Assembly: GCA_030068145.1 (NCBI GenBank)
Contig: JAPJBO010000086.1
Span: 191,001 to 255,000 of the forward strand
DNA length: 64,000 bases
Direction: 5' to 3'
From: Diplonema papillatum
Lineage: Eukaryota; Euglenozoa; Diplonemea; Diplonemida; Diplonemidae
Position 1 is the first letter of the stretch, and each line of letters opens with the position of its first letter. A program made the translations under genes and the position numbers. The notes beneath the pieces are model-generated. The model was not told the origin of the DNA, did not search any database, and worked only from the letters and a program-made list of their open reading frames with translations. Below are positions 1 through 46,312 of the stretch, in pieces.

Positions 1-78
1 CTTGCCTTCATCGCCAAAAATTGTCGATCAACCCAATTTCTTATGTTGGTTGTCGGAAGCTTTGCAAAGGAGCCTGTG

Positions 79-690
79 CCCTGGGACGTTTTCTGCGCGT
101 ATGACCAACGAATGCCAATTCAGAAGCGGGCTGCATCGGTGTTGGAGTCTCTCTCGCAGGCTACTTCATGTGGGCCCTGCAATTGACGAACACCGGGCAT
201 CTCTTGCTCGATGCTTGAGGGCTCAACGTGTGTGAACGGATGCCGACAGCGTTGTTTTGTTTGTTTTGAGTCGGTTGCCCAACACCTTTGGACACGGCCA
301 ACTACCGTGGCACACAGGCAACAACACCCAGCACTTTGCCGTGTTAGTTCAGCCAGCTACCCAAAACCAGTCCCAAAAAAAGCCCTGGGACGTTTTCTGT
401 GGCTGCCGACAGCGTTGTTTCGTTTGTTTTGAGTCGGTTGCCCAACACCTTTGGACACGGCCAACAACCGTGGCACACAGGCAACAGCACCCAGCACTTT
501 GCCGTGTTAGTTCCACCAGCTACCCAAAACCAGTCCCAAAGCCCTGGACGTTTCCTGTGGCTGCTTGTGAAGTGAGCTAGCATCGGAGCTGGAGTCTCTC
601 CCTCGCAGGCTATTTCGTGTGGGCCACGCTTCGAGACACGGCCAGCACCCGGCACTTTGCAGTGTTAGTTCAGCGAGCAACCCAAAACCA
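79..690. repeat. Nested tandem repeat upstream of the alpha2/delta-like gene
   Basis: A segment of about 162 bp is repeated: the words gtcggttgcccaacacc near 270 and 432 mark two nearly identical units, and ccctgggacgttttctg begins units at 79, 384 and (slightly changed) 542. The outer parts, about 134-210 and 580-660, are also copies of each other. One word shared by the two inner units, gagtcggttgcc followed by caaca, also occurs inside the downstream coding region near 1288, where it encodes FESVAN. The array may therefore contain decayed pieces of the gene's 5' coding region. No convincing gene is seen here. The A-rich stretch 740-940 and the A-run just before 1045 are simple sequence. 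Confidence 0.75.
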
Positions 691-1044
691 ACCTCTCAGG
701 GACACGCGAAATGAGGGCAACAGATCAAGAGGCCTTCTGAAGCGCAAGGGGACTCGCAAAAAAAAGAAAAAAAAAAAAAAAAAACGCCGGAAGCGGGAAG
801 AAAAGAAAACACAAAAAGGAAGAATTCGTCAAAACGCCGCAAGAAAATTGTCGACCGCACGCACACAAAAAAGACCGTACCATCCGGGACCGTCGGACAT
901 ACATATCGAAAAGAAAGAAAAAAAAAAAAGAAAACGCTAACCCAAACAACTTCCGCCGGTAGAGAAACCTTGCCTAAAGAAATCAACTGCCTTCGGGCAG
1001 GCTAGTCTGACAACTAGTTGTCGTCGGGGGAAAAAAAAAAAAAA

Positions 1045-4000
1045 ATGTTTCCACTCCCGCGACTCGCCCTCTGCGCCCTCTGCGCCGCGTGCGCGGCGGG
1101 GGCGGCGCCGGTGGACGAAGTCGTGAAGTGGGCGAACTCGATCTCGGCGAACGTCGACTCCTTGCTGCAGGAGGCCGGCGGGTACAGCATCGTGGACCGT
1201 GCGCTGACCGACGCGGCGTGGCGCCGCGAGCGGATGCCCGCCGGCGAGGCGGCGGCGGAGGCCCGCAAGGCGCTGTTCCGCATGTTCGAGTCGGTTGCCA
1301 ACATCGCGAAGAACCTCAAGAGCAACGCCGAGCAGGGCGTCGAACTCGGCTCGTTCCAGCGGGAGTACTGGGACGCCGACGGCTTCCGCGAGCGCGTCAT
1401 GCCTCTCGGCATTAAAGCGATCACCCCCGTCCCCGAAGCCGCGTGCACCGTGGAAGAGGCGGCCAGGTACGACGGATACGTCAACTTCGACACGTCGGCC
1501 GTCAAGCTCTCGACCTCGTCGCGGCGGTCCGAGGCTCGGCTGGGCGCCTTCATCGAGTGGTCGGCTATTTTGGACTCGGTCTTCAAGTCGATGCGGCTGC
1601 GCTCGGACAGCATTTTGAACCAGTGGGCCGCCGACGCCTCGGGTGCCGTGCGCTTCTACCCCGGCAGGGCGTGGCCGCGGAACGCGATGGGCGCGCCGAA
1701 GGTCTTCGAGGCCGCGGAGCAAGCGTGGTGGGGCGAACGGGCGGCGTCGCGGAACGTCGCGATCGTCGTCGACGGCAGCGGGTCAATGGGACGGCCCGCC
1801 CGGTGGCGGGCCGCGGTCGCTGCGGTCGCCCGTGTGCTGGCGAGGCTCAGCGAGGCGGACAACTTCGCGGTTCTGCTCGCCACCGCTTCCCACCAAGCCG
1901 CGCACCACCAGGTCTTCCCCCTCCCGCCCGTCACGTACGCCCCCTGCAGAACGTCCACACTCCTCCCGGCCACACCATCTCGCAGGGCTGAAGCGCTGCG
2001 CGCGCTGACCGGCCACACCCCCCGCGGCTCCACAGCCCCCCTCCCCGCCCTCCGGCAAGCCGCCGTCCTCGCGCAGCTTCGCAGCTCACCCTCGCCCCCG
2101 TCCCCCTGCGCGCAGGCCATCGTTTTCGTGACCGACGACGCGCCGTCCGACCCCGAAGCGCACTGCGGCGCGGGGTCGTACACCGAGGACGGTGCGTGGA
2201 CGGCCCCGCCGCTCTGCAACCTCACCGCCTCGCTCACTCAGTCAGCCGTCGAAGACGTCCTCTCCGGCGAAGACTTCGAGGGCAAGCTGTTCAGCATCGT
2301 GGTCCGCCCGGAAGTTCAATCGTACGCCACCGCGTCCAGCGCCGCGTGCGCCTTCGGCGGGGCCAGGATGGTCGTCTCCGGCCCCGCGGAAACGGACGGC
2401 AGCCTCGGGCCCGTTTTCGCGTGGCTCTCGTCGTTCCCGCGGGCGGACGGCGTCGCGTGGACGTCGCCGCACCCCGACGCGTTTGGCACGGGGCTCCGCG
2501 TGCTGGCAGCGACCCGCCCGTTCTTCCAAGGCGGCGCCTTCCGCGGCGTCGTGGGAGCGAGCCTGCCGGTGGCCGAAGTGCAGCGTGTTTTCGCCGAGCT
2601 CCGACCGCACGCCCACGGCTACTTCTTCCTTGCGAACGCGAAGGGCGAGGCCGTCGTACACCCGTACGCAAGCCAGCCGCCACGCGGCGCGGCGGCGGCG
2701 GGCGTCGATCCGCTAATCGAAGAGCTCGAGACAACAGCCAACGCTGCCGGAGTCGTGTCGCCCAGCGGGTTTGCGGCGTTCATCCGGTCCGTGCTCGCGG
2801 GCGCCGACGGGCAGGCCGTCATGCACGGGCCGGTGAGGAGGGCGAAGGGGGAGGCGTGGCAAGGGTACGACGTCGTGACCCTCGAAAAAAGCTACGCGTG
2901 CACGTCTGTTCCGGAGACCGGGTTCTCGGTCTGCTGGGTCAACCACACAGCGCCCGGCGGGTTCCGGTACTGGCTGCCGAAGGACGAGAGCCTCGCGCTC
3001 TACGGGGCCGGCGGGAACGAGGTGCCTGCGGTGTTCCACAGGGTCGACCTGTATCCGAAGGAGACGCTCGAGCGGCACGGGCTGCGGGCGGCGGTGAACG
3101 CGTCCGGGAGGGCGGAGATCGCCGGGAAATCGGGGTATTTCCCGCGGAAGTCGTGCTTCTGCGGCGCGGGGGCCGCCCTCGGTGCCGCGCCGCCGACGCC
3201 GGCCGCCGTCGCGTACGTCCACGAGCAGATAACGGAGCTCGGCGCGCCGGCGGCGTGCGAGCAGGATTCCGAACCGTTCCAGCTGACCCCGCGCTGCGTG
3301 CGAGACATTCGGGCGTCGGCGGAGGCTGTGTACGGCCCGTGGGAGGCGGCTCACGCGACCACCTTCGGCACGTTCATCCACGACCAGTTGCTGGAGCGGC
3401 GGCTAGTGTCCTACGAAGGCACCGTCCTGACGATGCCCGCCGGGGCTCAGCCGTCGTCCTTGGTTCCGGAAGCATTGCCCGGGTACCAATCCGCCCTGCA
3501 CGATCCCACCATCATCCACATCTCCGCCCCTCGATTCGACGTGTTGTCCGACGTTCCGGTCATGTTCGCGAGCAAAGCGATCATGAAGGTCGAGGACGTC
3601 CTCAGCAACACCTCGTGCTCGTCCCACGTTGAGTGCCTCTCCGGCTCCGTGCAGGCGGCGTGCCTCCCCCGGGGCATCTGCAGCTCGATGGTGTCCGTCG
3701 GCGTCCTCTCCGTCAAGTTCCCGACGCGGTCGTGGAAAGCGGCGGTCCAAGCGCTGACGGCAGAAGACGCGCCCTCCTTGTCGTGCGGGGCCGCGTACCC
3801 CTGCCAGCACCCGCGGCTGGGGTCCGTCGCGCAGTGCGAGACGCGCTGCTACGTCGTCGACTCGTCCGGTGTCGTGCTCTACAATTCTTCTGCGTCGTGG
3901 CCCCAGCAGAACCGAACGCTCGCCGTGGCTTTGTCGTCGACCGAGGGGGAGCTGATGAGGCAGCTGCTGTATGGGATCAGGGGGTTCAACAAAAAGGAGG

Positions 4001-4506
4001 TGGCGCGACCGGACGGGGAGTGCCCGGTCACAGACAACTGGCGGCTGTGGCAGATGAAGGCCCGGAGGGAGGCGGCCGACTGGGACGTGACGCAAGCGGA
4101 TGCGCGGCGCAAAGCGTCGTTTCGCTCGCAGGAGACGATCGAGCCGTGCGCGAAGTTGGAGAGCTTCTACACGCTGAACCCGGCGGTCTTCAGCACGGCG
4201 CGGCAGGGCGTGTTGGACGACGGATGCGTCATCGGCAGCTACGCCGCGGCGCTCATACCGAAAACCAACGCGGTGTTCGTCGCGCTGTGGAACTACTCCA
4301 GCCACATCGGCCAGCGGACCGGCGGCACCATGGCGGCGCCCCGCGACTTCGGCTGCTCCGCAAGGAACACCCTGCACGCCGTCGGCTCTGTCCCGGTCGG
4401 CAACCTCAGCTGCCCCCTCGCCGAATACCCCAGCCGTGTCACTGTCGGGCAGCAAACTTGCGGCAATATTTCCTCTTTCCCGTGTGCTGCCCGGGAACCA
4501 GGCTGA
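1045..4506 (+). CDS. VWA/Cache-domain secreted protein, calcium-channel alpha2/delta-like
   Basis: Single open exon of 1153 residues. The ATG at 1045, just after an A-run, is preferred because it opens a signal peptide (MFPLPRLALCALCAACAAG). Residues of about 30-200 resemble the VWA_N region of alpha2/delta subunits: a WSAILDSVFK-like helix, then GAVRFYPGRAW. A von Willebrand A domain follows, with the MIDAS motif DGSGS at 243-247 (AIVVDGSGSMG). Around 470-560 is a Cache-like sensor segment (YFFLANAKGEAVVHP), then a Cys-rich ectodomain with many potential N-glycosylation sites. In the known family such proteins are extracellular partners of voltage-gated Ca channels, or related Cache/VWA receptors; binding to a channel here is inference. 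No C-terminal membrane segment or GPI signal is visible before the TGA, so a downstream exon may be missing or the protein may be secreted. GC content is much higher than in the flanks. A decayed copy of the 3' end lies about 320 bp downstream. Confidence 0.85.
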   Translation: MFPLPRLALCALCAACAAGAAPVDEVVKWANSISANVDSLLQEAGGYSIVDRALTDAAWRRERMPAGEAAAEARKALFRMFESVANIAKNLKSNAEQGVELGSFQREYWDADGFRERVMPLGIKAITPVPEAACTVEEAARYDGYVNFDTSAVKLSTSSRRSEARLGAFIEWSAILDSVFKSMRLRSDSILNQWAADASGAVRFYPGRAWPRNAMGAPKVFEAAEQAWWGERAASRNVAIVVDGSGSMGRPARWRAAVAAVARVLARLSEADNFAVLLATASHQAAHHQVFPLPPVTYAPCRTSTLLPATPSRRAEALRALTGHTPRGSTAPLPALRQAAVLAQLRSSPSPPSPCAQAIVFVTDDAPSDPEAHCGAGSYTEDGAWTAPPLCNLTASLTQSAVEDVLSGEDFEGKLFSIVVRPEVQSYATASSAACAFGGARMVVSGPAETDGSLGPVFAWLSSFPRADGVAWTSPHPDAFGTGLRVLAATRPFFQGGAFRGVVGASLPVAEVQRVFAELRPHAHGYFFLANAKGEAVVHPYASQPPRGAAAAGVDPLIEELETTANAAGVVSPSGFAAFIRSVLAGADGQAVMHGPVRRAKGEAWQGYDVVTLEKSYACTSVPETGFSVCWVNHTAPGGFRYWLPKDESLALYGAGGNEVPAVFHRVDLYPKETLERHGLRAAVNASGRAEIAGKSGYFPRKSCFCGAGAALGAAPPTPAAVAYVHEQITELGAPAACEQDSEPFQLTPRCVRDIRASAEAVYGPWEAAHATTFGTFIHDQLLERRLVSYEGTVLTMPAGAQPSSLVPEALPGYQSALHDPTIIHISAPRFDVLSDVPVMFASKAIMKVEDVLSNTSCSSHVECLSGSVQAACLPRGICSSMVSVGVLSVKFPTRSWKAAVQALTAEDAPSLSCGAAYPCQHPRLGSVAQCETRCYVVDSSGVVLYNSSASWPQQNRTLAVALSSTEGELMRQLLYGIRGFNKKEVARPDGECPVTDNWRLWQMKARREAADWDVTQADARRKASFRSQETIEPCAKLESFYTLNPAVFSTARQGVLDDGCVIGSYAAALIPKTNAVFVALWNYSSHIGQRTGGTMAAPRDFGCSARNTLHAVGSVPVGNLSCPLAEYPSRVTVGQQTCGNISSFPCAAREPG

Positions 4507-4721: not shown

Positions 4722-4875
4722 CGTCGTAGGCTGCCCGCTGTGCCGAGTACCCAAACTGTGCGACAGTCCCGTGTGGTCGTATTTCCTCTTTCCCGTGAGC
4801 TGCCGCGGGAACCAGACGACCACGACGGTATGATGCCTTCCCAACGTCTACTACTAATGAATCGGCGGTCTCAGC
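4722..4875 (+). pseudogene. Decayed echo of the alpha2/delta-like gene 3' end
   Basis: About 150 bp resembles the end of the preceding gene (about 4410-4550). Shared words in the same order include tgccgagtaccc (gene: cgccgaatacccc), tttcctctttcccgtg, gggaacca and caacgtctac. Spacing is conserved and the copy has substitutions and small gaps. It carries no useful reading frame and fits a decayed partial tandem duplication. Confidence 0.55.
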
Positions 4876-7514: not shown

Positions 7515-7832
7515 TGGGTTCTCGTGACTCGAGTCGTGAGTTGTGCATCTCTGGATTTTCGTGGGGTCCGGCGGAAGACTACGTAAACAAGACGTATCGT
7601 TTTCAGACGCTGTCTTTTTGCTGGGTTCTCGTGACTCGAGTCGTGAGTTGTGCATCTCTGGATTTTCGTTGGGTCCGGCGGAAGACTACGTAAACAAGAC
7701 GTATCGTTTTCAGACGCTGTCTTGCTGGGTTCTCGTGACTCGAGTCGTGAGTTGTGCATCTCTGGATTTTCGTTGGGTCCGGCGGAAGACTACGTAAACA
7801 AGACGTATCGTTTTCGGACGCTGTCTTGCTGA
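7515..7832 (+). repeat. Three tandem copies of a 104-109-bp unit
   Basis: Units begin at 7516, 7623 and 7727 with gggttctcgtgactcgag and are almost identical. They differ by small indels in the gctgtcttttt/gctgtctt end. Each unit contains the palindrome gactcgagtc. High identity points to recent amplification. The open frames across it are repeat artefacts. Confidence 0.9.
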
Positions 7833-8029
7833 TGTTTGTCGAAGGTCACCTGGAGACTCCCAAAGGAGTTCCAAGTGCGCTCCCTCACCGAATTGGTGGC
7901 AGTTTTCGCTGACTGCCAAAATCCATCGCGGGGCGCCGAGCTGCGGCAAAAAAACCATTTGAAGCCCGACGCAGCCGAATTGTTGTCTAGCCCTGTCTCC
8001 CAAACCAGAACACATCACGGCGTAGTGCA

Positions 8030-8899: not shown

Positions 8900-10910
8900 A
8901 TGGACGGGGCTAGCCTCCTCTGGGGCCCACCGGCGGCTCCTAAGGCCCAAAGCAGCGGAGACGCTGCACCGAAGAAGGCCGGCGGAGGCGCCGCCGACGC
9001 CGCTGCACCCGCTGCTGCACCCGCTGCTGCACCGGCCCGCAGCCCAGACAAGGCGGAAAAGGATAAGGCGGCGGCCGCCCGCGCGGTCGATACGTTTCCC
9101 GAGCTCGGCCTGGCGCCGTGGCTGGCGGAGACACTCGACGCCGTCGCAATCAGGAAGCCGACCAGAATCCAGTGCGACGCAATCCCGGTGATCCTCAAGG
9201 GCTCGGACGTCTGCGGGACGGCGTGTACCGGCAGCGGCAAAACCGCGGCCTACGCTCTGCCGATCTTGCAGATGCTCTCGAAGGACCCGTACGGCGTGTT
9301 CGCCACCATCATCGCGCCGACCCGCGAAATCGTGATGCAAATCGCAGACCAGTTCAAAGTCTTCGGCAGCACGTTCTCCGTGCACGTCCTGATCATGTAC
9401 GGCGGCGTTGCCAACCAGCCGCAACAGAATGAGTTGTCCCGCCGACCTCCGATCGTGGTAGCCACGCCAGGCAGACTGCGCGACACCTTGATGGTATAGC
9501 TTTCGCTCTCCTCTAAATAAGAACGCAATCCGGCTGGATACCTCAGCCGCACACGCAGCGCGGGGAAAAAACTCTTTTACCTTGATCATCATGTTCACCA
9601 TTCTTGATCACCCCTTCGTTCATCAGCGCGCAAGACCAACCACCAGAAGTCACACGCCAAACTGAGCCCACCTTCATTCACACTTCAAGAAAAGAACGCA
9701 ATCCGGCAGCAGGATACCTCAGCTGCATACGCGAAGAAAACCTTTTTACCTCGATCATCATGTTCACCATCATTGATAACTCCTTATCGTTCATCAGCGC
9801 GCAAGACCCAACCGCCGGAAGTCACACGCTAAACCAAGCCTACCCTTCAGAAAAAAACCCGCATCCTGACAGGTAGACGGCATGCTGAAGTGCTTCAAGA
9901 AGCTGAAATTCTTGGTGCTCGACGAAGCCGACAGACTCCTCGACGACTCGTTCAAGGAGACGATGGACGACATCTTCGACGACCTCAAGCCGCAGACTCG
10001 GCAGCTCCTCCTCTTCTCCGCGACGTTGTCGCACAAAGCCCTCGAGCAAACAGGGGCGCTCGCCCGCATTGGCTGGGACACCAGGAAGTTTGAGGTCGTC
10101 GACACCGGCGAAACCGAGGAAAGCCTCTACACCTCGGCCTCCAACCTGCAGGAGGACTTCATCCTGGTGCCCGCCGCCATCAAGCTCCCATGCCTCGCGC
10201 AGCTCCTGGAAGGTGACCCGGCCGTCCCATGGAAGAGCTGCATGGTCTTCGTCGCGTCGTGCAGGGAGTGCGAAGTGGTGCGGCTGACGCTGCAAGAGCT
10301 CGGCCTCCCCGTCGTGTCCATCAACTCGTTGCTCGAACAGCACCAGCGGACGGAGTCGCTAAACCTGTTCAAGCTGGGCAAGGCGAAGATTCTGGTCGGC
10401 ACCGACGTTGCGTCTCGCGGTTTGGACATTCCGAGGGTCGATCTCGTCCTGAATTACGACGTTCCGAGGTTGTCGAAGACATATGTCCACCGTGCGGGAA
10501 GAACGGCCCGAGCCGGGAGGTCCGGACGGTGCCTCAGTTTGGCGACCGACCAAGACGTGCAGAACGTGCGGCGGATCGAGCAGCACGTCGGGAAGAAGTT
10601 CCGGAAGGTGCAGCTCAACGAGGAGGCGACGACGACCCTTCTCGACCTCACCGTCGCCGCCCGGACCCGGGCCCAGCTTGCCGTCAACCAGAACTTCGGC
10701 GAGCGGCTGCGCGACGCGGAGGACAGCAAACTGCCGCGCGACCTCAAGAAGCAGGCCCGGCAAGAGTCGCAAGACTACATGGCCACGCGCAAACGCAAGC
10801 GAACGAACTCGGCGGCGCCGGCGAAAGCCAACCCCAGCGCCGCTCCTGCGAAACCCGCGCCGAAGAAGAAGAAGGTCGCGAAGGTCAAAAAAGTAGCGAA
10901 GCCGGCGTGA
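8900..10910 (+). CDS. DEAD-box RNA helicase, DDX49/Dbp8 type (2 exons)
   Basis: Exons 8900-9493 and 9873-10910 join in phase 0 (gtatag donor, cctgacag acceptor) and give 543 residues. After an Ala/Pro-rich N-terminus all helicase motifs appear in order: Q motif (IRKPTRIQCDAIP), I (ACTGSGKT), Ia (PTREI), Ib (TPGR), II (VLDEADRLL), III (SAT), IV (MVFVAS), V (GTDVASRGLDIP) and VI (HRAGRTARAG). The C-terminal extension ends in Lys/Ala-rich repeats typical of nucleolar proteins. In yeast, Dbp8 acts in small-subunit rRNA processing; a ribosome-biogenesis role here follows from the family. The ATG at 8900 is the first in frame; an upstream in-frame GTG is not needed. The intron holds a 173-bp tandem duplication, and decayed copies of the last exon follow the gene. 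Confidence 0.93.
9519..9855 (+). repeat. Tandem duplication inside the helicase intron
   Basis: Two diverged copies with a period of about 173 bp start at 9519 and 9692 (aagaacgcaatccgg). They share gatcatcatgttcacca, cgttcatcagcgcgcaagac and agtcacacgc in order. The second copy runs up to the 3' splice site region, so the duplication makes up most of the 379-nt intron. Confidence 0.9.
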
Positions 10911-11029
10911 GAGCTACTGAAGCGGGAAGCGTCAGACTGCTGCAAGAAACAGGTTCGTCAAGAAGCATGAACTTCGTTGTCCAGCCGCAACCGCAAGCCG
11001 AGTTCGGTACCTGCGAAGAGGAAAGAAGT

Positions 11030-12480
11030 GGTCGGAGGAAATTTCGAAGATGCAGCTTAACGAGGAGGCGACGACGACCCTTCTCGACCTCACCGTCGCC
11101 GCTCGGACCCGGGCCCAGCTTGCCGTCAAACAGAACTCCGGCGAGAGGCTGCGCGACGCGGAGGACAGCAAACTGCCGTGCGACCTCGAGAAGCAGGCCC
11201 GGCAAGAGTCGCAGGACTACATGGCCCTTATTTCTTGTGCACCGGATCGGAGATACCCGCCCTTGCCTGGTGCATGCCGTGGGTATGACATGGCCACCCG
11301 CAAACGCAAGCGGACGAACTCGGCGGCGCCGGCGAAACCAACCCCAGCGCCGCTCCTGCGAAACCCGCGCCGAAGAAGAAGAAGGTCGCAAAGATCAAAA
11401 AAGTAGCGAAGCCGGCGTGAGAGCTAACTTACTGAAGCGGGAAGCGCCAGAGACCGGTGCAAGAAACAGGTTCGTCAAGAAGCACGAATTTCATTGCCAG
11501 CCGCAAATGCAAGCCGAATTTGACTCCTGCGAGGGTCACACCGCCGCCGAAGAAGAAGCCGAAGGTGCAGCTCAACGAGGAGGCGACGACGACCCTCCTC
11601 AACCTCACGGTCGCCGCCCGAACCTGAGCCCAGCTTGCCGTCAACCAGAACTCTGGCGAGCGGCTGCGCGACGCGGAGGACAGCAAACTGCCGCGCGACC
11701 TCAAGAAGCAGCCGGCAAGAGTCGCAAGACTACATGGCCACCCGCAAACGCAAGCGGACGAACTCAGCGCCGCCGGCGAAAGCCAACCCCAGCGCCGTTC
11801 CTGCGAAACCCGCGCCGAAGAAGAAGAAGAAGGTCGAAGGTCAAAAAGTAGCGAAGCCGGCGTGATGGCTAACTTACTGAAGCGGGAAGCGTCAGACCGC
11901 TGCAAGAAACAGGTTCGTCAAGAAGCACGAACTTCGTTGCCAGCCGCAAACGCAAGCCGATTTTGATACCTGTGCGAGTCGCTCCTCCGCCGAAGAAGAA
12001 GTAGTCAGGAAGAAATTTTGAAAGTGCAGCTCCTCGAGGAGGCGACGTCCCTCCTCGACCTCACCGTCGCCGGCCCGGACCCGGGAAGGCTCGGAACTGG
12101 CATAAGCCATTCAGAGTGCCCCGGCTGAACCCTGAACGAAGAAGAAGATCAAAGGTAGAAGAAAGCGAAAAGCCTTTTCCGCTCGTTTTACCAGGTCCGC
12201 CTACGTCGTGGCAGGTGGTGGAAACGCGCCGACCGAGATTCAGCTTGCTCCCGATGATTGACGGGTTGTCGGGCCGCCGGTGGCAAACGTTACCGGGAGC
12301 TGGTGACGACAGTTCATTCGTACGTCAGCATCAGAGTCCTGGCTTGCGCGTTTCCGCCGGGCGGTCAAGAATAAGAATCAGGATCAGGATCAGGATCAGC
12401 AGACAGCCCCAGAACTGGGAGGCGGACCGATGCCTCGGTTTGGCGACTGATCTGGCTTGCGAATGTGCAGAGTTTCTGCA
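11030..12480 (+). pseudogene. Decayed tandem echoes of the helicase 3' end
   Basis: Copies of the helicase C-terminal coding sequence plus 3' flank start near 11050, 11565 and 12021, marked by acgaggaggcgacg (gene at about 10617). Each continues through the Lys-rich tail and the following aacaggttcgtcaagaagca flank, so the duplicated unit is about 440-515 bp. The first copy has a foreign insertion of about 65 bp near 11225-11290, the second has frameshifts, and the third is short. A further weak match near 12422-12475 resembles the motif-VI region (cctcggtttggcgact). None could make a helicase. Shared flank shows the duplication was genomic, not from mature mRNA. Confidence 0.88.
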
Positions 12481-13263
12481 ATGCTAAGACTCGACCATCC
12501 CGTCCTCCAGGGCCGAGAGCATTTTCTGCGGCGAAGCTCTTGGTGGCTCGGGTCGCTTTGCGGTATTCTGCTTCGTGACTTGTTTTGGTCATTGTTTCTG
12601 TCTGATCGCCGGGAGAATTTGGCAGGGAGCGGATGATGTCGGTTATTATCATCACCTTCTGCTGCGGACTTTAACATACGGTGTGATATCTGATTCGTGT
12701 AGCCCACAACTGTAAAAAAACCAAAACAAAAACGGCCCAGCCTAGGAGCGCGCTTTGCCTTGTGCGTTATCTGTTTTCGCGTGTTTTCGCCAACCGCCCT
12801 GCTGCATCCCTTGCTCCGTGCAGCTTCTAGCTTTATATCAACAATCATGTATCTCGCCGTCCACAAAAGACTGTTTTTGTCCCCTTGCTCCGCATTCCAA
12901 ACTGAAACAAAATATTCGACCGCAGGGTTCAATTAAGTAACTTCGAGCTCATGTTTGAGAATAGATCGAGGAAGCGACGTCCCCAATGCCTCCATTCACT
13001 AATACCTGGCGTAACTCCTGTTTGCTTGGCTGTACTATGAAACCACCCACTAGATGGTTCGATGGGTCTTTCGCCTCCAAAACCAGCTTTGACGAGGTTG
13101 TCCCGGCGCGAGCTCCTGGGCTGTGTGGATGCTTGAGAGGAGCTGACAGCTTCCCAATCCTCTGGGTTTCGTGTCGACAGAAATACTAGAAAATAGGCAG
13201 TCACGCGTCATGAGCATGGAAAGCCAACGGCAAAGGCAACGGTTCCACAAAACAGACCTGAAC
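12481..13263. other. Spacer between helicase echoes and the sulfotransferase locus
   Basis: No gene supported. The sequence is moderate to low GC, with no domain, RNA gene or clear repeat recognised. Confidence 0.4.
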
Positions 13264-13708
13264 GCTATTGACGCACGAAAGCGAAAAGCGCCGCGACTAA
13301 GCGAAAACTGAAGGGATTCTCCTGAAGTGAGCACCATAGGAGGGGGCGGGCGGCGCACTGCTCGTGGGAGGGGGAGATCCATGCGAGGAGCGCATGTCGT
13401 CGCCGCCTGCTCGATCGCGGCCGCCGCGCTGCTGATCGTCCCGTTTTCGTGCGCCGGCTGCCGCCTCGCGTGGAACCCCAGCCCGAATGGGGAAGGAGAC
13501 GGGCATGCGGCACCGGCGGCCCACACCACGGAGATCGCGGTGACGGTGCTGCCTTCGGAGTCGGTGTGCGCGGCGCCGGGGGCTGCCTTCCGGATCCTGG
13601 ACAGGGCGCACGCCCCGAACCCGCGCCGAGAGCGGCTGGCCCGTGAGTACTCGCTGCCCGGCGGCGTGCGGTTCTCGGGGCCGATGCTGCCGCCGTTCGG
13701 GTTCCACC
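13264..13708 (+). pseudogene. Truncated 5' copy of the sulfotransferase gene
   Basis: A direct copy, offset by about 446-452 bp, of 13716-14160. It includes promoter-proximal sequence (accataggagggggcgggcgg, gggagggggagatcc), an ATG at 13381, the signal anchor and about 100 codons up to FSGPMLPPFGF. After that it breaks into the repeated upstream flank (cgattgacacacgaaaact), and the frame ends at 13776 without the sulfotransferase core. It could still be transcribed as a short membrane-anchored or secreted peptide because the 5' region is nearly intact. The high identity to the full gene implies a young duplication. Confidence 0.9.
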
Positions 13709-13826
13709 TGTTGGCGATTGACACACGAAAACTAAGCGAAACTGAAGGGATACCCTCAGAGGTACTTCTGAAGTAAACACCATAGGAGGGGGCGGGCGGA
13801 GCACTGCTCATGGGAGGGGGAGATCC

Positions 13827-15787
13827 ATGCGGGGATCGCATGTCGTCGCCGCCTGCTCGATCGCGGCTGCCGCGCTGCTGATCGTCCCGTTATCGTGCGC
13901 CGGCGAGCACGGCTGCCGCCTCGCGTGGAACCGGAGCCCAAGTGGGGAAGGAGACGGGCAGGCGGCACCACCGACCCACGACGCGGAAGACGCGGTGACG
14001 GTGCTGCCGTCGGAGTGGGTGTGCGCGGCGCCGGGGGCTGCCTTCCGGATCCTGGACAGGGCGCACGCCCCGAACCCGCGCCGAGAGCGGCTGGCCCGTG
14101 AGTACTCGCTGCCCGGCGGCGTGCGGTTCTCGGGGCCGATGCTGCCGCCGTTCGGGTTCGAGGTCCGCGGCGCCTTTGACACGCCGTTCAGCGCCGCCAT
14201 GCGCGCGGCGCCCGCGACGCGCGGCGCGCCGACCGGCGCCGCCGCCCTCCGCCTCGCCCGCAGCTGGGGGCTCCCCGACCAGTGGAACGCCCGGCACCAC
14301 CCGACACACTTCATCCTCGGCCCACCCAAGTCGGGCACTACATTCCTCTCCCAGTGCTACGCCAGCGGCGCCGTGTCGGGGCACCCCCGCGTGAAGCCGT
14401 ACCCCCCGGCCTGGAAGCGGTGGCCCGTCGGCCGGCACGACAACGGCGAGCCGGAAGAAGGGCTGACGATCACGCAATACAACGGCGTCCAGGTGTGTGA
14501 ACGCAAACCGCGAGAGCAATCTTTTTAGTACTAACAATCTTGCGGGTTGCCCTTTAATGTGTTGTGCAGCGTGTTTTGATAGTTGATCAGAATTCCTTAC
14601 CTGAATATGCAGGGTACATACAAGTGGGAAAACGATCACCCGGCACGCACAAACAAAACGAAGCGCCTGTCTTTTTTGATAGTACAGTTGTACTGACGGA
14701 ACATTTCCGGGTTGTACATGAAAGAGAAAACAGAAGCCAGAAAACGAAAAGAAAGTGCTCACAGGATCTCCCCCATGGTGGAGGTTATAGCCTGTACACG
14801 CGAAGAACAAACAGTCTTCTGTAGAAGCTACAGGCGTTATCCTATTTTCAGTCATAAGCTTATAGCACATACCCACAGTCGTGGAACCGAACGGGTTTCA
14901 GGCGGTTCAGCATAGGTAAGGAACCCCACGTGTACATGAGGGTACCACGATGGGACCGCATGGAGTACTACCGCGTCTTCGAAGGGTATCCTCCAGTGGA
15001 GCCCGAGTCGAAGGATTGGACCGTGATGGATGGGTCCCCCGTCTACCTGATGCTGCCTCGGGTGGCGGAACGGGTGTTTGAAGATCACTGCTCGAATCTG
15101 GAGAAGCTGCGGTTCGTCGTCGGGTGGCGCGGCGGGCTTGCCCGCGCCTTCAGCCACTTCGCGATGTTCGCCGCTTGGGGGAGCGTGAACGCCAGCCATT
15201 TCATTGACAGGCTGCGCTTCGAGCGGTCGATATGGGACCGCGACGCTGCTTGTACCGTGCTGATCGATAACCCGGACGCGATCCTCGACATGCCGCGGCT
15301 CAGGCTCCGGTTCGTGCTGCAGCACTGCTTCGTCGAGACGGAGGCACCGCCCGGCGACCAGTCGTTCTTCGGCCAGTCTCTGCCCGTCGTGGGGCTCCGG
15401 TACTGGCTGCACTTCTTCCCCGCGAAGCACTTCACCGTCATCCGCACCGCCGCCTTGGAAACCCGCGACCCGCACCACACCGCGAACATCCTGGCGGCCG
15501 CGTTCAATCTGACGGCCACGCGCGGCCCGTGCCCGGGCGGCGCCGGCTGGGGGCCGTCGTCGACGTGCGCCGGAGAGCACGAGTGGGACGATATCTACGA
15601 TAGCTGCACGGATGCCAAGGGGACGGGAGCCCGTCGGCCGGCGTCGTTTTCGTGGTACAGCTCGAAGTTGGGCATCGTCAGGGGCAGCCGCGAGGAGCGG
15701 AAGCCGTTTCGCGAGCTCTTCGCTAGGTACGACGACCTCATGCTCAAGCTCGTCCGCAGATTCGGCGTCCGGCTCGTCGAGAAGTGA
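13827..15787 (+). CDS. Sulfotransferase, type II membrane protein (2 exons)
   Basis: Exon 1 is 13827-14492 (donor gtgtgt) and exon 2 probably 14921-15787 (acceptor gtaag, phase 0), about 510 residues; the acceptor is the least certain point. Residues 6-25 form a hydrophobic N-terminal anchor (VVAACSIAAAALLIVPLSC), which suits a Golgi-lumen enzyme. The 5'-phosphosulfate-binding loop is FILGPPKSGTTFL near residue 170, with the Lys-Ser/Gly-Thr-Thr signature. The 3'-phosphate region GWRGGLARAFSHF near residues 290-300 matches the R...RA.SH motif of carbohydrate sulfotransferases. The enzyme would transfer sulfate from PAPS to a sugar acceptor; the acceptor is unknown. Partial copies of this gene lie on both sides. 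The intron contains two dispersed repeat families. Confidence 0.82.
14526..14840. repeat. Dispersed repeats filling the sulfotransferase intron
   Basis: Positions 14530-14600 (cttgcgggttgcccttt, gtgttgtgcag, gttgatcagaattcc) recur at 26325-26405 and, in part, at 30855-30930 (ggtcgatcagtgttcctgacc, gtaaatacaagtgggagaac). Positions 14697-14830 recur at 8045-8160. The intron therefore appears to be assembled from mobile or amplified repeats. Confidence 0.8.
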
Positions 15788-15822
15788 GGCGGCATGTGTT
15801 GTTTGGCGCCCGGGTAGCAGTG

Positions 15823-16160
15823 AACGTGGAAGAACGGGTCTTTGAAGGTCGCTGCTCGAATCTGAAGAAGCTGCGGCTCGTCGTAGGGTGCCGCGGCGGG
15901 CTGGCCCGCGCTTTCAGCCACTTCGCAATGTTGGAGCGTGATCGCCAGCCACTTCGTTGACGATATCTACGATAGCTGCACGGACGCCAAGGGGACGGGG
16001 TCCCGTCCCCTTGGCAACCGTCGTTTTCGTGGTACAGCTCCAAGTTGGGCATCGCTAGGGGTAGCCGCAAGCCGTTTCGCGAGCTCTTCGCTAGGTACGA
16101 CGACCTCATGCTCAAGGTCGTCCGCCGATTCGGCGTCCGGCTCGTCGAGAAGTGAGGCGG
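15823..16160 (+). pseudogene. Internally deleted 3' copy of the sulfotransferase gene
   Basis: The copy starts like exon 2 near 15064 (gaacgggtctttgaaggtcgctgctcg), includes the RAFSHF region, then loses the counterpart of about 15202-15588 and resumes at the cgatatctacgatagctgc segment. It runs through the same last codons and TGA (ctcgtcgagaagtgaggcgg) into a matching 3' flank. At 15986-16015 it has gained a perfect palindrome with 14-bp arms (GCCAAGGGGACGGG). It lies downstream of the parent in the same orientation, so it looks like a tandem unit with internal loss. Confidence 0.88.
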
Positions 16161-26439: not shown

Positions 26440-26765
26440 CGCAGAGGCTTTGACACAGCGGCAGACAACACAAGTGGCAAGAACTGCTCATACATTTTTT
26501 GCAGCCGGCATGCGGCCACTAGTCCGCCGACGCTGGTGAAGTGCCGATCACCCGCCACGACGGATCCCGCTGCTTTCTGATGGAAGCAGCGGCACAGAGC
26601 GCACGAGGTGGCCCCGCACAAAGCGAGCCCTGCTCGTGTTTTTTTGCACTGTGTGCAGCCGTTGAGTTCCGATTGGGCCAACCTGCCGGCTTTTCTAGAA
26701 ATATGGGAGGCACTATTTAGCGCATAAAGGCCCCGAAAACGGCCAACAGATAGCGGCTTGTGTAC
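26440..26765 (+). pseudogene. Decayed echo of the unknown gene's last exon
   Basis: Shared words in order with 25945-26210 are catcacccgccacgacg, ccgctgctttctgatg, aaagcagNggcaNagaNcg, gccggcttttc and a gtgcacata/agcgcataaaggccc-like flank. The copy covers the C-terminal codons, the stop region and about 180 bp of 3' flank, with many substitutions. Around 27240-27295 a shorter match to 26455-26515 (gacagacaa, gcagccggcatgcg) suggests a further unit. No usable frame remains. Confidence 0.72.
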
Positions 26766-31347: not shown

Positions 31348-32775
31348 ACGTTGACTACCAAGTCTAATTAAATTTGGGATCGGAAATTGAACGTTGACTA
31401 CCAATTCTAATTAAATTTGGATTCAAAATTGAACGTTGACTACCAATTCTAATTAAATTTGGATCGGAAATTGGACGTTGACTACCAATTCTAATTAAAT
31501 TTGGGATCGGAAATTGGACGTTGACTACCAATTCTAATTAAATTTGGATTCAAAATTGGACGTTGACTACCAATTCTAATTAAATTTGGATCGAAATTGG
31601 ACGTTGACTACCAATTCTAATTAAATTTGGGATCGGAAATTGAACGTTGACTACCAATTCTAATTAAATTTGGATTCAAAATCGAACGTTGACTACCAAT
31701 TGACGTTGACTACCAATTCTAATTAAATTTGGGATCGGAAATTGGACGTTGACTACCAATTCTAATTAAATTTGGATTCAAAATTGAACGTTGACTACCA
31801 ATTCTAATTAAATTTGGGATCGGAAATTGGACGTTGACTACCAATTCTAATTAAATTTGGATTCAAAATTGAACGTTGACTACCAATTCTAATTAAATTT
31901 GGGATCGGAAATTGGACGTTGACTACCAATTCTAATTAAATTTGGATTCAAAATTGAACGTTGACTACCAATTCTAATTAAATTTGGGATCGGAAATTGG
32001 ACGTTGACTACCAATTCTAATTAAATTTGAGATCGGAAATTGGACGTTGACTACCAATTCTAATTAAATTTGGATTCAAAATTGAACGTTGACTACCAAT
32101 TCTAATTAAATTTGGGATCGGAAATTGGACGTTGACTACCAATTCTAATTAAATCTGGATTCAAATTGGACGTTGACTACCAATTCTAATTAAATTTGGA
32201 TCGGAAATTGGACGTTGACTACCAATTCTAATTAAATTTGGATTCAAAATTGAACGTTGACTACCAATTCTAATTAAATTTGAGATCGGAAATTGGACGT
32301 TGACTACCAATTCTAATTAAATTTGGGATCCGAATTTAGACGTTGACTACCACTTCTAATTAAATTTTGGATACGACATCAGACGTTGACTACGGATTGT
32401 AATTAAATTTGGAATCCGAAACTGGACGTTGACTACCAATTGTAATTAAATTTGGGATCCGAAACTGGACGTTGCCTAGCAATTCTAATTAAATTTTGGA
32501 TTTGGCATCAGACGTTGACTACCAAGTCTAATTGGTTGTGGATCCGAACCTAGACGTTGACTACCAATTTTAATTAAATTTAGAGCCAAACCTGAACGTT
32601 GACTACCAATTCTATTTAAATTTGGAATCGGAAATTGGACGTTGACTACCAATTCTAATTAAATTCAGGATCGGAAATTGGACGTTGAGTACCGACTCTA
32701 ATTAGATTTGGGGTTCGGCATCAGACGTTGACGACCGGTTCTAACTGAATTTGGATTCAATACTAGGAGTTGACC
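31348..32775. repeat. Satellite array of alternating 43- and 42-bp units
   Basis: About 33 units begin acgttgactaccaattctaa. Two unit types alternate over most of the array: one ending gggatcggaaattgg (43 bp) and one ending ggattcaaaattga (42 bp), forming an 85-bp higher-order unit. The left and central copies are nearly identical and the right end (32330 onward) is increasingly diverged, as expected if homogenisation acts inside the array. A single stray unit lies at 33467-33498, beyond the hAT element. Confidence 0.95.
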
Positions 32776-32832
32776 GGCGCGGAAATTCTTCGCTGTACCG
32801 TACCGTGCGCTGGGGGGCGCTGCCCCCCAGAC

Positions 32833-38450: not shown

Positions 38451-41400
38451 ATGCCTTCGTCGCGGGACGAGGGCGGGGCCATCAGGTACTCGGAGAGGCT
38501 GTCGAATTCGTTGTTCTGCGAGAGGTTGTCGCTGTCGCCGTCGTACACGCGGTGCAGCTCGCGGGCGAGCGCCGACGACGGCGGGGCCGCTTGCCAGCAG
38601 TTCGAGCTCGGCGTGCTGCGGAAGCGCGTGTGCCTGCTCGAAACCGCGCTCCGCGGCTGCGGCGCGGCAGTCGCCGCCGAGGCGCAAGCCGCGCGGAAGG
38701 CGCTCGCCTCCATCCGCCAGGCACTCACGGGCTTCTCCGCGAAGCCGGCCCGCAAGTGCGCCGCCGCCCGCGGAGGTGCGTTGCCCATCATCCCCGTCGT
38801 GCCCCCGACGCTCTGCGACGAAACAGCCCGCACGCTCGTCCGCTTCGTCGAGAACCGCATCACCTGGGTCCAGAGCCCGTGCTCCGGCACCCCCTCCGAC
38901 GACGCATTCACCCCGCTGCTCACGCCGCTGCTGCCCGTTTTTAGCGGCAGGCCGGAGTTCGGCTCCGTGAACAGCGCGTCTGCCCGGCCCGCCGCCCCCG
39001 CCCCGCCGCCCGCGGCGAAGGCAGCGGCGGCGGACCCCCCCCCTGGGCTCAGGCGCTTGGGGTCGCTGGACTGCCTGTTCGTCTTCGTGGACCAAGCCAC
39101 CCAGACCGACATCACCAGCTTCCCGCCGGCGGATTCGCTGCCGTTTCCGCGGGTCGGTACGCGGGAGCAGCCGGCGGCCGCCGTCAAGCCCCGGCGGCAG
39201 CCGGCGCTCCGGCGGCCGGGGCGCGGCCGCGCGAGCTCCGCCGCCGGCGGGCGTGGGGATTGCCCGCAGAAGGGCGTGCCGCTGCGGGTGGCGGACGGTC
39301 CAGCGCGTTCGAACCTCGGCGTGCGCGCGGAGCGGCCGCGAAACTGCGGAGCAGGGGCTTCGCTTGGGGAGGAACGTCGGCAATACGAGTCGTCGCACCG
39401 TGAACAGGAAGTGCTCACGCGCTCGAACCCCGATTTACACGCACAGTGTCCGCGAAGTGCGGCGGACCTATCTCCGGAGGAAGTCGCGTGCTCAAAACTT
39501 GATTCGCTCGCAGAGCGGCCGGAGGACTGCGACGCGGAGTCTCCACGTGGTGGAGAGAAAACACGGCAATCTGCGCAATACCCGCAGCGTGAACAGGAAG
39601 GGCTTACGCGCTCGAACCTCGACTTGCGAGCAATGTGTCCGCAAAGTGCGACGGACCTGTTTCCGGAGGAACTCACGCGCTCAAAACTCGACCCGCCCGC
39701 AGAGCCGCCGGAGGACTGCGACGCCGAGTCTCCACGTGGTGGAGAGAACCCTCGGCAATCTGCGCACGATCCGCAACGTGAACAGAAAGGGCTCGTGCGC
39801 TTGGACCTCGACGTGCACACACGGTGTCCGCAAAGTGCGACGGACCTGTCTCCGGAGGTTCTCACGTGCTCAAAACTCGACTCGACCGCAGATCGGCCAG
39901 AGGACTGCGACGTCGAGCCTTCGGCGGGAGAGAATCCTCGGCACGCCGCGCACGACCAGGGCGGGCTCACGCGGAAAAAACTCGACTTGCTGCACACGGA
40001 TGACGCGCCCGGCATCGTGGGGTGGGAGCCGCCGGCGGGCGCGGCGCAGGGGGCGCCGCCCAAGAAGCAGAAGTCAGCGGAGCCCCCGCCCTTCTCAAAA
40101 GTGTCGGCGGGCGGCGGCGGCGAGATGCTGGGCGGGAGCGCCGCGATCCGGTACCTGGGGTGGAGCCCCGGCGGCGGGTTTTCGGCGGTGGTGCCGGCGG
40201 CCGCGCCGGGCGAAAAAGCGGCCGCCGCCGCCGCCGCCGCCGGTTTCGCGGCCCTCTTCCCGTGTGCGGGCCCCGACCTGCTGGACCCCAGCGCCGGCGG
40301 CGCGCCGAACTCCAACGTGTGCGACCCGTTCACCTTCTACGCGGCGGTCCTCAGCCTCCACGGCCGCCTGCACACGGCGGAGCGCCGCCTCCGACTAGAC
40401 GCCAACGCGGCCAGCGCCTCCTTGAGCACGCTCGACCACGAAGTATGCCCCACGTTTCCAGCTTTAAAAACAGGACCATTCGCGCACTTAACCAAGAAGA
40501 CGGATGACGGCACAGGCACAAACATAGCTCAAAGCATCCGCAGAATAACACGAAAAGTCCGTCGTTGTTTGCAGAAAAAAAAGACGAAAAGCCTGCACAC
40601 GGTGAACCCCAGCAACGTTTGCTCGAGTGAAACCAGACTCTCCAAAAGCGGGTGTGCCACACCCGGAATAGGGTGTGAAATAGGGTGTGAAATAGGGTGC
40701 GAAATAGGGTGTGAAATAGGGTGTGAAATAGGATGATCCGTACCCGGAAATAGGGTGTGAAATAGGGTGTGAAATAGGGTGTGCACTACCTATTTCCGGG
40801 TGTGGTCACACCCGCACTTGAGGCCGGATTTTAGCTCGAGCATAAGTTGCTGGAGTTCACCGTGCATGCAAACCCCCGTTTAACGTGTTTTCTTGAAAGA
40901 ACAGCAGGGAGTAGTTGACTAGATCTCCCGAGTTGCGCTGTTCACGATGGCGGGCGTCGGAGAGCCTAGCGGAACCTAAAGCAGGACCGACCCCTTCTCT
41001 CGTGAGAAAAAAGTGAAGGAAACAACTCTGATTTACACCCGCTTTGTCAAGAGCTGCGACACAGCCGTGCTTGTACACGCCCCCTCGCTTTGTAGGATAT
41101 TCGCAAACCAGGAAGGTGTGCTGTGGCTCACACGAAACACACGCGGTACATCTGTTCAGACCGGGGGGTGCACGGCTCTTGAGTCCTGGAGGCCGGAGTT
41201 CCGTCCCGAAAAGTATGAGGGTGTTCTTCAAAAGATCCTATCCTCCCGATACGAATGTCAGCCAGAGACTCTAAAATCGCGGAATTCTCAAGCGAACTTT
41301 AACTCACTGCAACACAGGGAGACGCCGGTCCGAGCTGCCAGCAGGCGTACCGGTGCCTGCAACTGGCCGTCAGCAACGCGGCGGAGGCGATGCGGCTTGC

Positions 41401-43505: not shown

Positions 43506-44981
43506 ATGCCCCCGGCCAATCCCCTGGACACAGCCGCCATCCAGCGGCTCCAGAAAAGGAAGCCGGCATCGGGGGAAGCGAGCAAGTCAGTAAAACGCAG
43601 CAAGATCGACGTGCCGCAGCAGAAGCGACCGAGTTCAGCGCAGGCCGGACAGGACAAGAAGCGTAGAGTCGATGTCGTGTCGTTGCTGAGCTCCGAAGAG
43701 TCGGCACGAGGAAAGATTGCAAAGCCGCAAAGTATCGTTGGTGCTACTGGATCTGGCACGCAGCAGACTCTGCCAAAGCCGGCGAAATTAGTCGCGCAAA
43801 TGGGCATCGAAAAGAGCATTGCCCCGCAGTCACTCTCCAAGGGTGCTGGAAGTGGTGCAACGGCTCCGGCAAAGACAGTGAAAACACGGTCTTCTTTGAG
43901 TTCGTCAAGTGCGGGCTCCTCTTCGTCTTCCTCCTCCTCCTCATCCTCTTCTTCTTCTTCTTCTACGTCAAACGGCTCGGCGCTTGACAGCGAAGAAATG
44001 GACGTCGCGGATATGATCGCAAGCGATGATTCCTCAAGTGAAAGTGGCAGCGATTCAGCTTCCTCGTCTTGCATGGTCGCCTCGCGTCTGTCGGACAAGG
44101 CCATGTTCTACGTGTATCTGCAGAGTCTCGATGCTGCGATGGGCCTGTCTGCCCGTTCCGCTGATCTGCCGGCCAAGGTGGTGGACAAGTGCCGCCGGCA
44201 CATTGAAGGCGACATCAGAATGCGACGGGATCTGCTCTGCGAGTCCACAGTCTGGAACCCATTATTTGTGGACGTCCTCGACAAGCACAGCATCATCGAA
44301 GTCGGCTGCAAAGTGACCGACTCGTCTACCTCGAAAGAAGACGGCAACGTGGACAGGCAGCGATGCCTTGCTTGCGGACGAAAAGCTTCGTATCTCCTGT
44401 TCCTTTCGGGTACCAAGTACTCCGCGAAGGACCTGTGGGCCACGGACGTGTCGTCGTCGCATGACATTTACAAAACTCTGATGTCGCAAAAGTCATCGAC
44501 CGTTATTCACGCTGACGGGATCATCCCCGTAGGCCCCGGCTGCAAGGAAGCAGCCCTGCACTACCACAAGCTGCATCACGCCAAGCTGCGGTTGATGCAC
44601 GCCCTCGCGGCGGAGAGGAAGGGGATGCTGCGCAGCGAGGCGAGCGACTTCACGACCGTGAGCAACGACCTCTACACGAGGCACCGTCGGCTGCTGCGCG
44701 AGGTGGAGAACCGGTTTCTGGAGGGCGGCGTCGTCCCGGACGCCGCGCAGCAGACGCTGAACTCGTGGGTTCGGCTCAAACAGCGGAGAAGGCGCAAGGT
44801 CGCCGCTTCCAGGCGGTGGGCCCCGCCTTCGGACGGGCACCTTGTCCAGGCGGACATCCGCGACATGATGGTCAGACGGACGAGGGAGGTGCCGAAGAAA
44901 AACCCGCAGAAGCTGTACAAGAAGCCGAAGGAGCTGCAGCAGAGCACGCTTGCCGGGTTCGTATCGAAGAAGAAGAAATAG
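43506..44981 (+). CDS. DUF4211-like nuclear protein with PCNA-box-like tail
   Basis: Single exon, 491 residues. The N-terminus is basic with Lys/Arg clusters (KRSKIDVPQQKR, DKKRRVD) that could act as nuclear signals. A long Ser tract (about residues 130-155) encoded by tct/tcc/tca repeats follows, then an acidic patch (DSEEMDVADMIASDD). Residues of about 195-390 resemble the DUF4211 domain: RRDLLCESTVWNPLF, then CLACGRKASYLLFLSGTKY (the C-x2-C with a following Y...SG..Y strand), and a helical GPGCKEAALHYHKLHHAKL stretch. The protein ends QSTLAGFVSKKKK, close to the PIP-box pattern (Q-x2-L-x2-F) found at the tails of PCNA-binding proteins. A chromatin or replication role is therefore suggested. 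Decayed copies of the last 110 bp of coding plus 3' flank follow in tandem. Confidence 0.75.
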   Translation: MPPANPLDTAAIQRLQKRKPASGEASKSVKRSKIDVPQQKRPSSAQAGQDKKRRVDVVSLLSSEESARGKIAKPQSIVGATGSGTQQTLPKPAKLVAQMGIEKSIAPQSLSKGAGSGATAPAKTVKTRSSLSSSSAGSSSSSSSSSSSSSSSSTSNGSALDSEEMDVADMIASDDSSSESGSDSASSSCMVASRLSDKAMFYVYLQSLDAAMGLSARSADLPAKVVDKCRRHIEGDIRMRRDLLCESTVWNPLFVDVLDKHSIIEVGCKVTDSSTSKEDGNVDRQRCLACGRKASYLLFLSGTKYSAKDLWATDVSSSHDIYKTLMSQKSSTVIHADGIIPVGPGCKEAALHYHKLHHAKLRLMHALAAERKGMLRSEASDFTTVSNDLYTRHRRLLREVENRFLEGGVVPDAAQQTLNSWVRLKQRRRRKVAASRRWAPPSDGHLVQADIRDMMVRRTREVPKKNPQKLYKKPKELQQSTLAGFVSKKKK

Positions 44982-45112
44982 CAAAGCGCCTGACGGAATC
45001 AAACACGGCGGCCATTGACCCATGCTCCTGCCACAGAATGGCACAGAGGTATCTTGGTGTGGGTGTTAGTTATGCCCAGGGAGATTCCCTTAGCAGCCTT
45101 GTGACCGGTGAC

Positions 45113-45420
45113 GTGACGGTCCGACGGACGAGGGAAGAAAACCCCGCAGAAGCTGTACGAGAAGCTGAAGGAGCTGCAGCAGAGTACGCTTGCCGGGTTC
45201 GTCGCGAAGAAGAAGAAATAACAAAGCGCCTTGCGGGACCACAGTGGCCATGGTACAAATTCTATGCTCTTGCCACAGGCACAGAGGTATCTTTGGTGTG
45301 GTTGTTCGTTACGCCCAGTGGGATTCCGTCAGCAACCTGGTGACGTGACGTGACGGTCCGACAGACGAGCGGTATTGCAGATGATTCTGCAGAAGCTGTA
45401 GTTGCGAAGAGGAAACGAAT
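45113..45420 (+). pseudogene. Tandem decayed echoes of the DUF4211 gene 3' end
   Basis: The parent segment from about 44868 (ggtcagacggacgaggg) through the stop and 130 bp of flank is repeated from 45118 (period about 246) and again, shorter, from 45354 (period about 237). The first copy retains a shifted version of the tail (cagcagagtacgcttgccgg, gaagaagaaataacaaagcg) and the flank words cacagaggtatcttTggtgtg-like. The second soon decays. The reading frames lack any upstream coding part. Confidence 0.9.
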
Positions 45421-46312
45421 GACGCAACTGGCGTGGTGTCCGATGGGCACCAGCCATTACCGTCCGAAGCGACGGTTCGATATGCGCTTGTGTTGATGCC
45501 GCCGAAGATACGCTCGAGTTGAGGTGGCAGTCAGAGCCGAGTGGGTTTAACTCGCTTTGCTCATGACGTCTATCAAGAAAAATCTCCCGCTGGAGGTCCA
45601 AAGCTTCCTTTCATGTCTCCGTGTGTCGCACCGAGGCAGTTTGGTCACACAGTTTCTTGGCTATGCTAACCATCACGGCTATCATGGTCCGCAGGCTATT
45701 GGACCAAATTCACTTGGTTCACGTGTCGTCGAACACGAGCCCTGACCCCATGCTGCACTCCCCTTGAGTAGATCTCCGTTCTGCCGCACGGTCTTCGAGT
45801 CTTTGTTCTCACCCCTTTCGACGCAAAGCGACAATAAGCTGTCTGAGGTAAGCGCCCAATAGCTGCGTCCTTGGACTGGAGAACCAACACCGATTCATTT
45901 TCCAACCAACACCGATTCAGTTTCCAACTCACACCTCAAGGCAATAGGAAGCACCGTTCGAGCAACTAGGAACGACCACGTTGCTGTTCAAACACCGGGC
46001 TGTTCTGTTTCTTGAGCTGGTTCTTGGTATCGTCCCATTGCAGGTTGCCCCTCCGCACCCGTCAACCCCTGAGGCAAGGGCATCGTTCAGCCGCATGCGT
46101 GCTTTGTAGCCCACGCTTGCAGTCATGCGTGTTAGGCCGCTGGTGTCCTCAGCTATTGCTCTGAGTTCTTCCTCTGTCCTTTCTGTGCTTCATGATAGAC
46201 TCTGTTTTTAACACACAAATTGACAGGCACAACCGGGAGCAAAGGACACACGAAAAAAGCACAAGTAGCACAAAAGAGGAACCAGCTGAGAACAGGACCG
46301 GATCGTATTGCA
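45421..46312. other. Spacer before the LSD1-type gene
   Basis: No gene supported. Around 45895-45925 a short phrase (aaccaacaccgattca) is repeated in tandem. An AG preceded by pyrimidines/tt-acac near 46225 could be the 5' processing site of the next gene. Confidence 0.4.

Follow-up and report, generated by a model that had tools for sequence, protein, structure and literature searches.

Partial copies of gene ends in a 64-kb stretch of the Diplonema papillatum genome probably stem from ordinary short-range tandem duplication

Introduction

The closest described counterparts of the sequences analysed here come from the diplonemid Diplonema papillatum itself, for which "repeat-bounded gene structures" have been described at the 5' and 3' sides of genes (Valach et al. 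2023, PMC10161547). In these structures, terminal segments comprising coding sequence (CDS) and untranslated region (UTR) are tandemly repeated beside the gene as degenerate copies of 71-96% identity (47% in one case), and such copies are reported there to confuse automatic gene models; the "Nuclear gene structure" section of that paper gives no mechanism. Here we analyse a stretch of 64,000 nucleotides from the same genome (GenBank assembly GCA_030068145.1, contig JAPJBO010000086.1, positions 191,001 to 255,000 of the forward strand; hereafter the window), in which each of five genes has, downstream, partial and likewise degenerate copies of its own end (61-93% identity, with indels and some stops). 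The published description names 5' regions and the 3' sides of first exons or of single-exon genes, whereas the window adds last exons of multi-exon genes (PMC10161547). Gene-end tandem copies in D. papillatum are hence already known, and the present cases are a small extension; no closer precedent appeared among the titles and abstracts listed in literature searches.

Ordinary local tandem duplications are direct and head-to-tail, comprise few copies, have breakpoints inside or outside genes and can produce partial gene copies. This form is common to them and to the copies in the window; the difference is that here such copies are frequent in the stretches sampled, with many of them old and diverged. 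Minisatellites and tandem arrays share the head-to-tail arrangement, but the gene-end units, unlike minisatellites, are about 250-770 bp long, occur in 2-4 copies and include coding sequence. Our analysis indicates that the gene-end copies are probably ordinary short-range tandem duplications that are indifferent to gene ends, some of them crossing one gene boundary. It provides a first, still small tally of direct local duplication for a diplonemid, together with a warning that eye-catching gene-end copies may arise from survival and visibility, without a mechanism at gene ends.

Copies of gene ends in the window

A sequence-only reading of the window had reported degraded direct copies of the terminal exon and 3' flank behind five genes. 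Self-comparison bore this out, with partial, diverged direct copies of the terminal coding part after each of the five: all downstream matches scored higher than every one of 300 versions of the downstream 3 kb shuffled by dinucleotides, and four of the five also outscored at once all of the 72 unrelated pieces, 3 kb each, taken from this genome. In case of the four-exon gene, the query at first fell short of the unrelated pieces (68.3 bits against 111), owing to a dispersed repeat within its 3' part; when cut before this repeat, it exceeded all 72 pieces (68.3 against 29.7). The genes, units and copies are as follows:

1045..4506, +, alpha2/delta-like single-exon gene (VWA_N, VWA and Cache by Pfam; ATG at 1045, open frame to the stop at 4504-4506)
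4409..4501, +, end of the alpha2/delta-like CDS, source of the copy (self-BLAST)
4730..4815, +, degraded copy of 4409-4501 in direct orientation, 72% identity (self-BLAST, shuffles)
8900..10910, +, DEAD-box helicase gene of two exons, 8900-9499 and 9877-10910 (home-made model; stop 10908-10910)
10591..11033, +, helicase unit: last 320 bp of the CDS including the stop plus 123 bp of 3' flank (self-BLAST, genome search)
11034..11532, +, second helicase unit (matches 11034-11226 and 11288-11532, with 61 non-matching bp in between)
11549..11972, +, third helicase unit, 91% (genome search)
12008..12085, +, partial fourth helicase unit, 84% (genome search)
13256..13704, +, outer 5' copy of the sulfotransferase gene: 5' flank and exon start (self-BLAST)
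13706..14159, +, genic counterpart of the sulfotransferase 5' copy, 87% (predicted ATG 13827)
15062..15834, +, sulfotransferase last-exon unit (stop 15785-15787)
15826..16201, +, sulfotransferase 3' copy, 82-83%, lacking a counterpart of about 15209-15586
25905..26251, +, end of the four-exon gene and its flank (stop 26029-26031)
26497..26789, +, old copy, 61%, of the end of the four-exon gene (self-BLAST, shuffles)
44862..45109, +, DUF4211 gene-end unit with 128 bp of flank (stop 44979-44981; DUF4211 E 2e-5, just under the curated cut-off)
45110..45400, +, abutting DUF4211 copy 45110-45344 (80%) and the start of a third partial unit

For the alpha2/delta-like gene, the Pfam match to VWA_2 lies at the cut-off and the other two domains lie below theirs; the copy of its end taken alone is not significant as protein (tblastn E 3.2), and that of the four-exon gene is weak (tblastn E 0.002). 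The helicase copies are 84-93% identical to the source unit and the sulfotransferase 3' copy answers to a unit of ~764 bp, while none of the copied parts contains a predicted intron. Copies of the helicase and DUF4211 ends start at the base directly after the first unit and the sulfotransferase 5' pair is 1 base apart; gaps of 228 and 245 separate the alpha2/delta-like and four-exon copies, respectively, from their sources. The abutting form of the clearest pairs is that of a head-to-tail tandem duplication.

All five genes have their copies in direct orientation, as the sequence-only reading had stated, and the further claim that these always lie close by holds but for a single 168-bp piece of the helicase end, which lies on contig C388. 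This was found by searching the whole genome (271 Mb, 2910 contigs; the published assembly comprises 280 Mb in 6181 contigs of at least 200 bp, PMC10161547), and the same search with the DUF4211 unit returned its local copy only. Concerning copies at the 5' side, that of the sulfotransferase gene was confirmed by self-BLAST, with 13256-13704 matching 13706-14159 at 87%. A 5' copy suspected for the alpha2/delta-like gene was not: the mutually matching repeats at 123-690 are located 5' of the ATG at 1045 and include no part of the gene. Processed retrocopies, which would be separate-site insertions ending at a poly-A site, do not fit the arrangement of the helicase and DUF4211 copies, which abut a source unit that itself extends into the 3' flank.

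In all seven alignments that include both coding sequence and flank, similarity is higher in the coding part than in the flank, although two of the seven concern helicase copies and not all are independent. The respective identities are 0.94 and 0.67 for the sulfotransferase 3' copy, 0.94 and 0.77 for the sulfotransferase 5' copy, 0.91 and 0.83 for DUF4211, and 0.99 and 0.93 for a pair from outside the window (stretch L025). Frame-breaking gaps occur in wholly coding alignments (11 bases in the sulfotransferase, 1 base in the helicase), and stops lie inside the helicase, four-exon and alpha2/delta-like copy matches, with none inside those of the sulfotransferase and DUF4211.

These properties bear on two further explanations. 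That the copies are retained for a function, for example as alternative terminal exons or as regulatory elements of the 3' UTR, would be in keeping with the long 3' UTRs of this species, discussed as possible regulatory platforms (PMC10161547), and with the stop-free sulfotransferase and DUF4211 matches; given the stops in the other three, the frame-breaking gaps in some copies, the greater divergence of the flank parts and the statement that the array examined in PMC10161547 is not in the mature mRNA, we regard it as improbable. An artefact of assembly, caused by duplicated reads or alleles, is less probable still: the copies differ by 7-39% overall with many indels, unlike allelic or read duplication, and long-read support is stated for one such array of another gene (PMC10161547, legend of Fig. 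2).

Frequency of copies at gene ends and elsewhere

From the consistent position of the copies, the sequence-only reading had proposed a genome-wide process tied to gene ends, to be examined by comparing the last 300 bp of each gene with its 3-kb flank. We searched 300-bp segments for a direct match within 3 kb, both in the window and in an outside sample of 240 kb (24 stretches of 10 kb on large contigs C1 to C120, with the sites fixed before reading). The rows are uncurated for window and outside sample alike: the 11 window ends do not include the alpha2/delta-like gene and the match of the four-exon pair is under the threshold, so that two of the five known pairs are missed and the window count is 3/11. 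Segments with a direct copy were counted as follows:

Terminal 300 bp: outside 2/22; window 3/11
Initial exon starts: outside 0/21; window 1/13
Other exon starts: outside 5/43; window 1/9
Donor-site exon ends: outside 1/38; window 2/11
Internal exon blocks: outside 6/112; window 2/33
Non-coding blocks: outside 54/346 (29/307 when the array-rich stretches L029 and L032 are left out); window 11/122
Shuffled pairs: outside 1/104; window 0/53

Outside the window, terminal segments showed no excess over non-coding blocks (Fisher P 0.55, or P 1.0 against 29/307), over internal exon blocks (P 0.62) or over exon starts (5/64, P 1.0), while the comparison with shuffled pairs gave P 0.08. Of the two outside terminal matches, that at L016 4022-4260 is in fact the outer member of an exon-start pair, and if the window's rate of 3/11 were the true one, two or fewer matches among 22 would be expected with P = 0.04. 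Direct copies of non-coding blocks were present in 14 of the 24 outside stretches, and 48/346 such blocks (23/307 without L029 and L032) had theirs within about 1 kb.

Counting clusters of duplication (offset of at most 1 kb, length of at least 50, in 304 kb) yielded 42 direct against 5 inverted ones, some of the direct ones being minisatellites or retroelement repeats; 25 of the 42 abut within 50 bp, in keeping with tandem duplication. In a comparison with random placement, the position of 13 clusters in the window and of 30 outside was scored relative to predicted exons; here the end of the alpha2/delta-like gene was reset by hand to the stop at 4506, as the model had used a false splice site, and eight exon predictions inside copies were removed, all of them in the window, with the outside rows left uncurated. 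Clusters touching no predicted exon of score >=20 made up 22 of the 30 outside (16.88 expected, P 0.036), and acceptor-side clusters were close to expectation (4 against 4.88, n=30). All four exon-internal clusters (at 39261 in the window, L013 1-1296, L023 and L027) have periods divisible by 3, for which the chance is 1/81. The proposal of a genome-wide process thus stands in part: direct local duplications are common and gene-end cases are published (PMC10161547), but the tie to gene 3' ends is unsupported outside the window.

The window itself also holds tandem duplications away from gene ends; that at 238-564 and all entries from 7515 onwards are not listed in the finding of the sequence-only reading:

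123..690, no strand, non-coding tandem array (unit of 163 bp) ahead of the alpha2/delta-like gene, with an intergenic duplication at 238-564
7515..7834, no strand, tandem array in intergenic DNA, three units of about 104-107 bp, 98%
9512..9849, +, 173-bp tandem duplication in the helicase intron
31346..32774, minisatellite of about 33 units of 43 bp
39261..39990, +, exonic tandem repeat of 183/189 bp that keeps the frame, serving as internal comparison case
56522..56919, no strand, tandem array of about three 132-133-bp units, 92%, taken as non-coding by the home-made model

Origin of the copies

We consider ordinary short-range tandem duplication the probable source of the gene-end copies, by a route that would run as follows. 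Units of about 100-800 bp would be duplicated at many sites in the genome, presumably by replication slippage or repair, with breakpoints falling irrespective of gene ends. Where a unit crosses one gene boundary, a complete gene would stay behind, formed with the upstream copy in case of a 3' event and with the downstream copy in case of a 5' event; the extra piece would sit in the 3' flank, an intron or intergenic DNA and then decay, while duplications within coding sequence would survive if the frame is kept. A survival filter may act in addition: selection on one copy would keep the coding part alignable longer than in pairs where both members drift, and it is for this reason that gene-end copies would be conspicuous to a reader. 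In favour of this account are the head-to-tail form of the clearest pairs, the direct copies of non-coding blocks in 14 of the 24 outside stretches, the lack of an excess at stops outside the window, the frame kept by all four exon-internal clusters, the higher identity of the coding parts, which is what selection on one copy would produce, and the 5' as well as 3' cases of PMC10161547; the molecular cause and the filter are our inference. The five cases in the window may reflect chance combined with the visibility of coding-end copies.

In the main competing account, the copies are products of an end-linked mechanism: transcription termination, 3' processing or trans-splice sites at the 3' ends of genes within polycistronic units would cause local breaks or slippage. 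Five of the 13 window clusters span a stop where 1.77 are expected (P 0.021, a post hoc value for an excess selected by the reader), both the unidirectional gene clusters and the 3' UTRs of D. papillatum are long (PMC10161547), and a terminal rate of up to 0.29 is compatible with the outside count of 2/22; outside, moreover, start- and donor-spanning clusters lie below expectation, with stop-spanning ones near it. Against this stand the lack of any outside excess, both among terminal segments (2/22 against 54/346 or 29/307) and among stop-spanning clusters (2/30 against 2.55 expected, so that the excess seen in the window is not repeated), the occurrence of 5' copies in the window and in PMC10161547, and the similar arrays found in introns, exons and intergenic DNA. 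We therefore judge such a mechanism unlikely. A weaker form, in which a local or moderate preference for 3' ends within polycistronic units results for example from conflicts between replication and transcript processing, and in which the 5/13 of the window represents a hot spot, appears slightly more doubtful again.

Several observations weigh against ordinary tandem duplication as the full explanation. Beyond the post hoc excess of stop-spanning clusters in the window, the two-sided 95% interval of the outside terminal count (0.01-0.29) covers the window's automatic 3/11, and with window and outside sample pooled, copies tend to be more frequent for terminal segments (5/33) than for internal exon blocks (8/145, P 0.07). 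A filter tolerant of boundaries does not predict the scarcity of start-spanning (0 against 2.27 expected) and donor-side clusters (1 against 4.46) among the 30 outside, and the depletion inside exons that the survival filter does predict was absent, with 3 exon-internal clusters against 3.43 expected outside and 1 against 1.5 in the window. It is the wide interval of 2/22 and this missing depletion that lower our confidence in the duplication account. The non-coding rate used for comparison is inflated, since 25 of the 54 matches come from L029 and L032, and inverted matches in 19/346 non-coding blocks indicate that dispersed repeats contribute to it. Gene boundaries were drawn by a simple home-made coding model without RNA data, and among the 11 window segments counted as terminal exons at least four are something else, namely two pre-intron exons and two retroelement frames. 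As for the form of the duplications, only 25 of the 42 direct clusters abut within 50 bp, match lengths at the junctions of young arrays scatter around the period and give no clear picture of microhomology, and the whole-genome search with the helicase unit returned, besides the local copies, the 168-bp piece on C388 at 96% identity. Finally, guanine-cytosine content or gene conversion might likewise account for the higher identity of the coding parts.

Other features of the window and genome

Predicted coding segments of score >=8 all lie on the + strand except for one short one, in agreement with the unidirectional gene clusters described for D. papillatum (PMC10161547), and A exceeds T on this strand in 28 of 32 2-kb bins (1-64000). 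A spliced-leader word has 383 matches in the genome; the reversed control has 0. Genome searches for ubiquitin-conjugating enzymes and for the light-harvesting family gave 38 matches and no match, respectively.

Intron 3 of the four-exon gene harbours a retroelement (21054-24417) with split direct repeats of about 99% identity, in which 21054-21176 corresponds to 24096-24218 and 23959-24105 to 24270-24417. Split direct repeats of this kind occur in DIRS/PAT-type elements. By eye, a tyrosine recombinase-like region (22016-22795) is followed by a reverse transcriptase/RNase H-like one (22795-23874), which seems to be an unusual order; none of the Pfam matches to the element was convincing. A dispersed repeat at 20458-20900 carries, again by eye, a tRNA-like B-box on the minus strand and is possibly a tRNA-derived short interspersed element (SINE); its part 20457-20600 has at least 39 matches of 96-100% elsewhere in the genome, with 40 of 1567 initial candidates scored. 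A predicted intron of the gene at 38451-42724 contains a 12-bp repeat (AATAGGGTGTGA) within an inverted repeat at 40598-40864, and a 76-bp repeat recurs at 20121-20196, 30520-30595 and 49441-49516, two of its copies being 96% alike.

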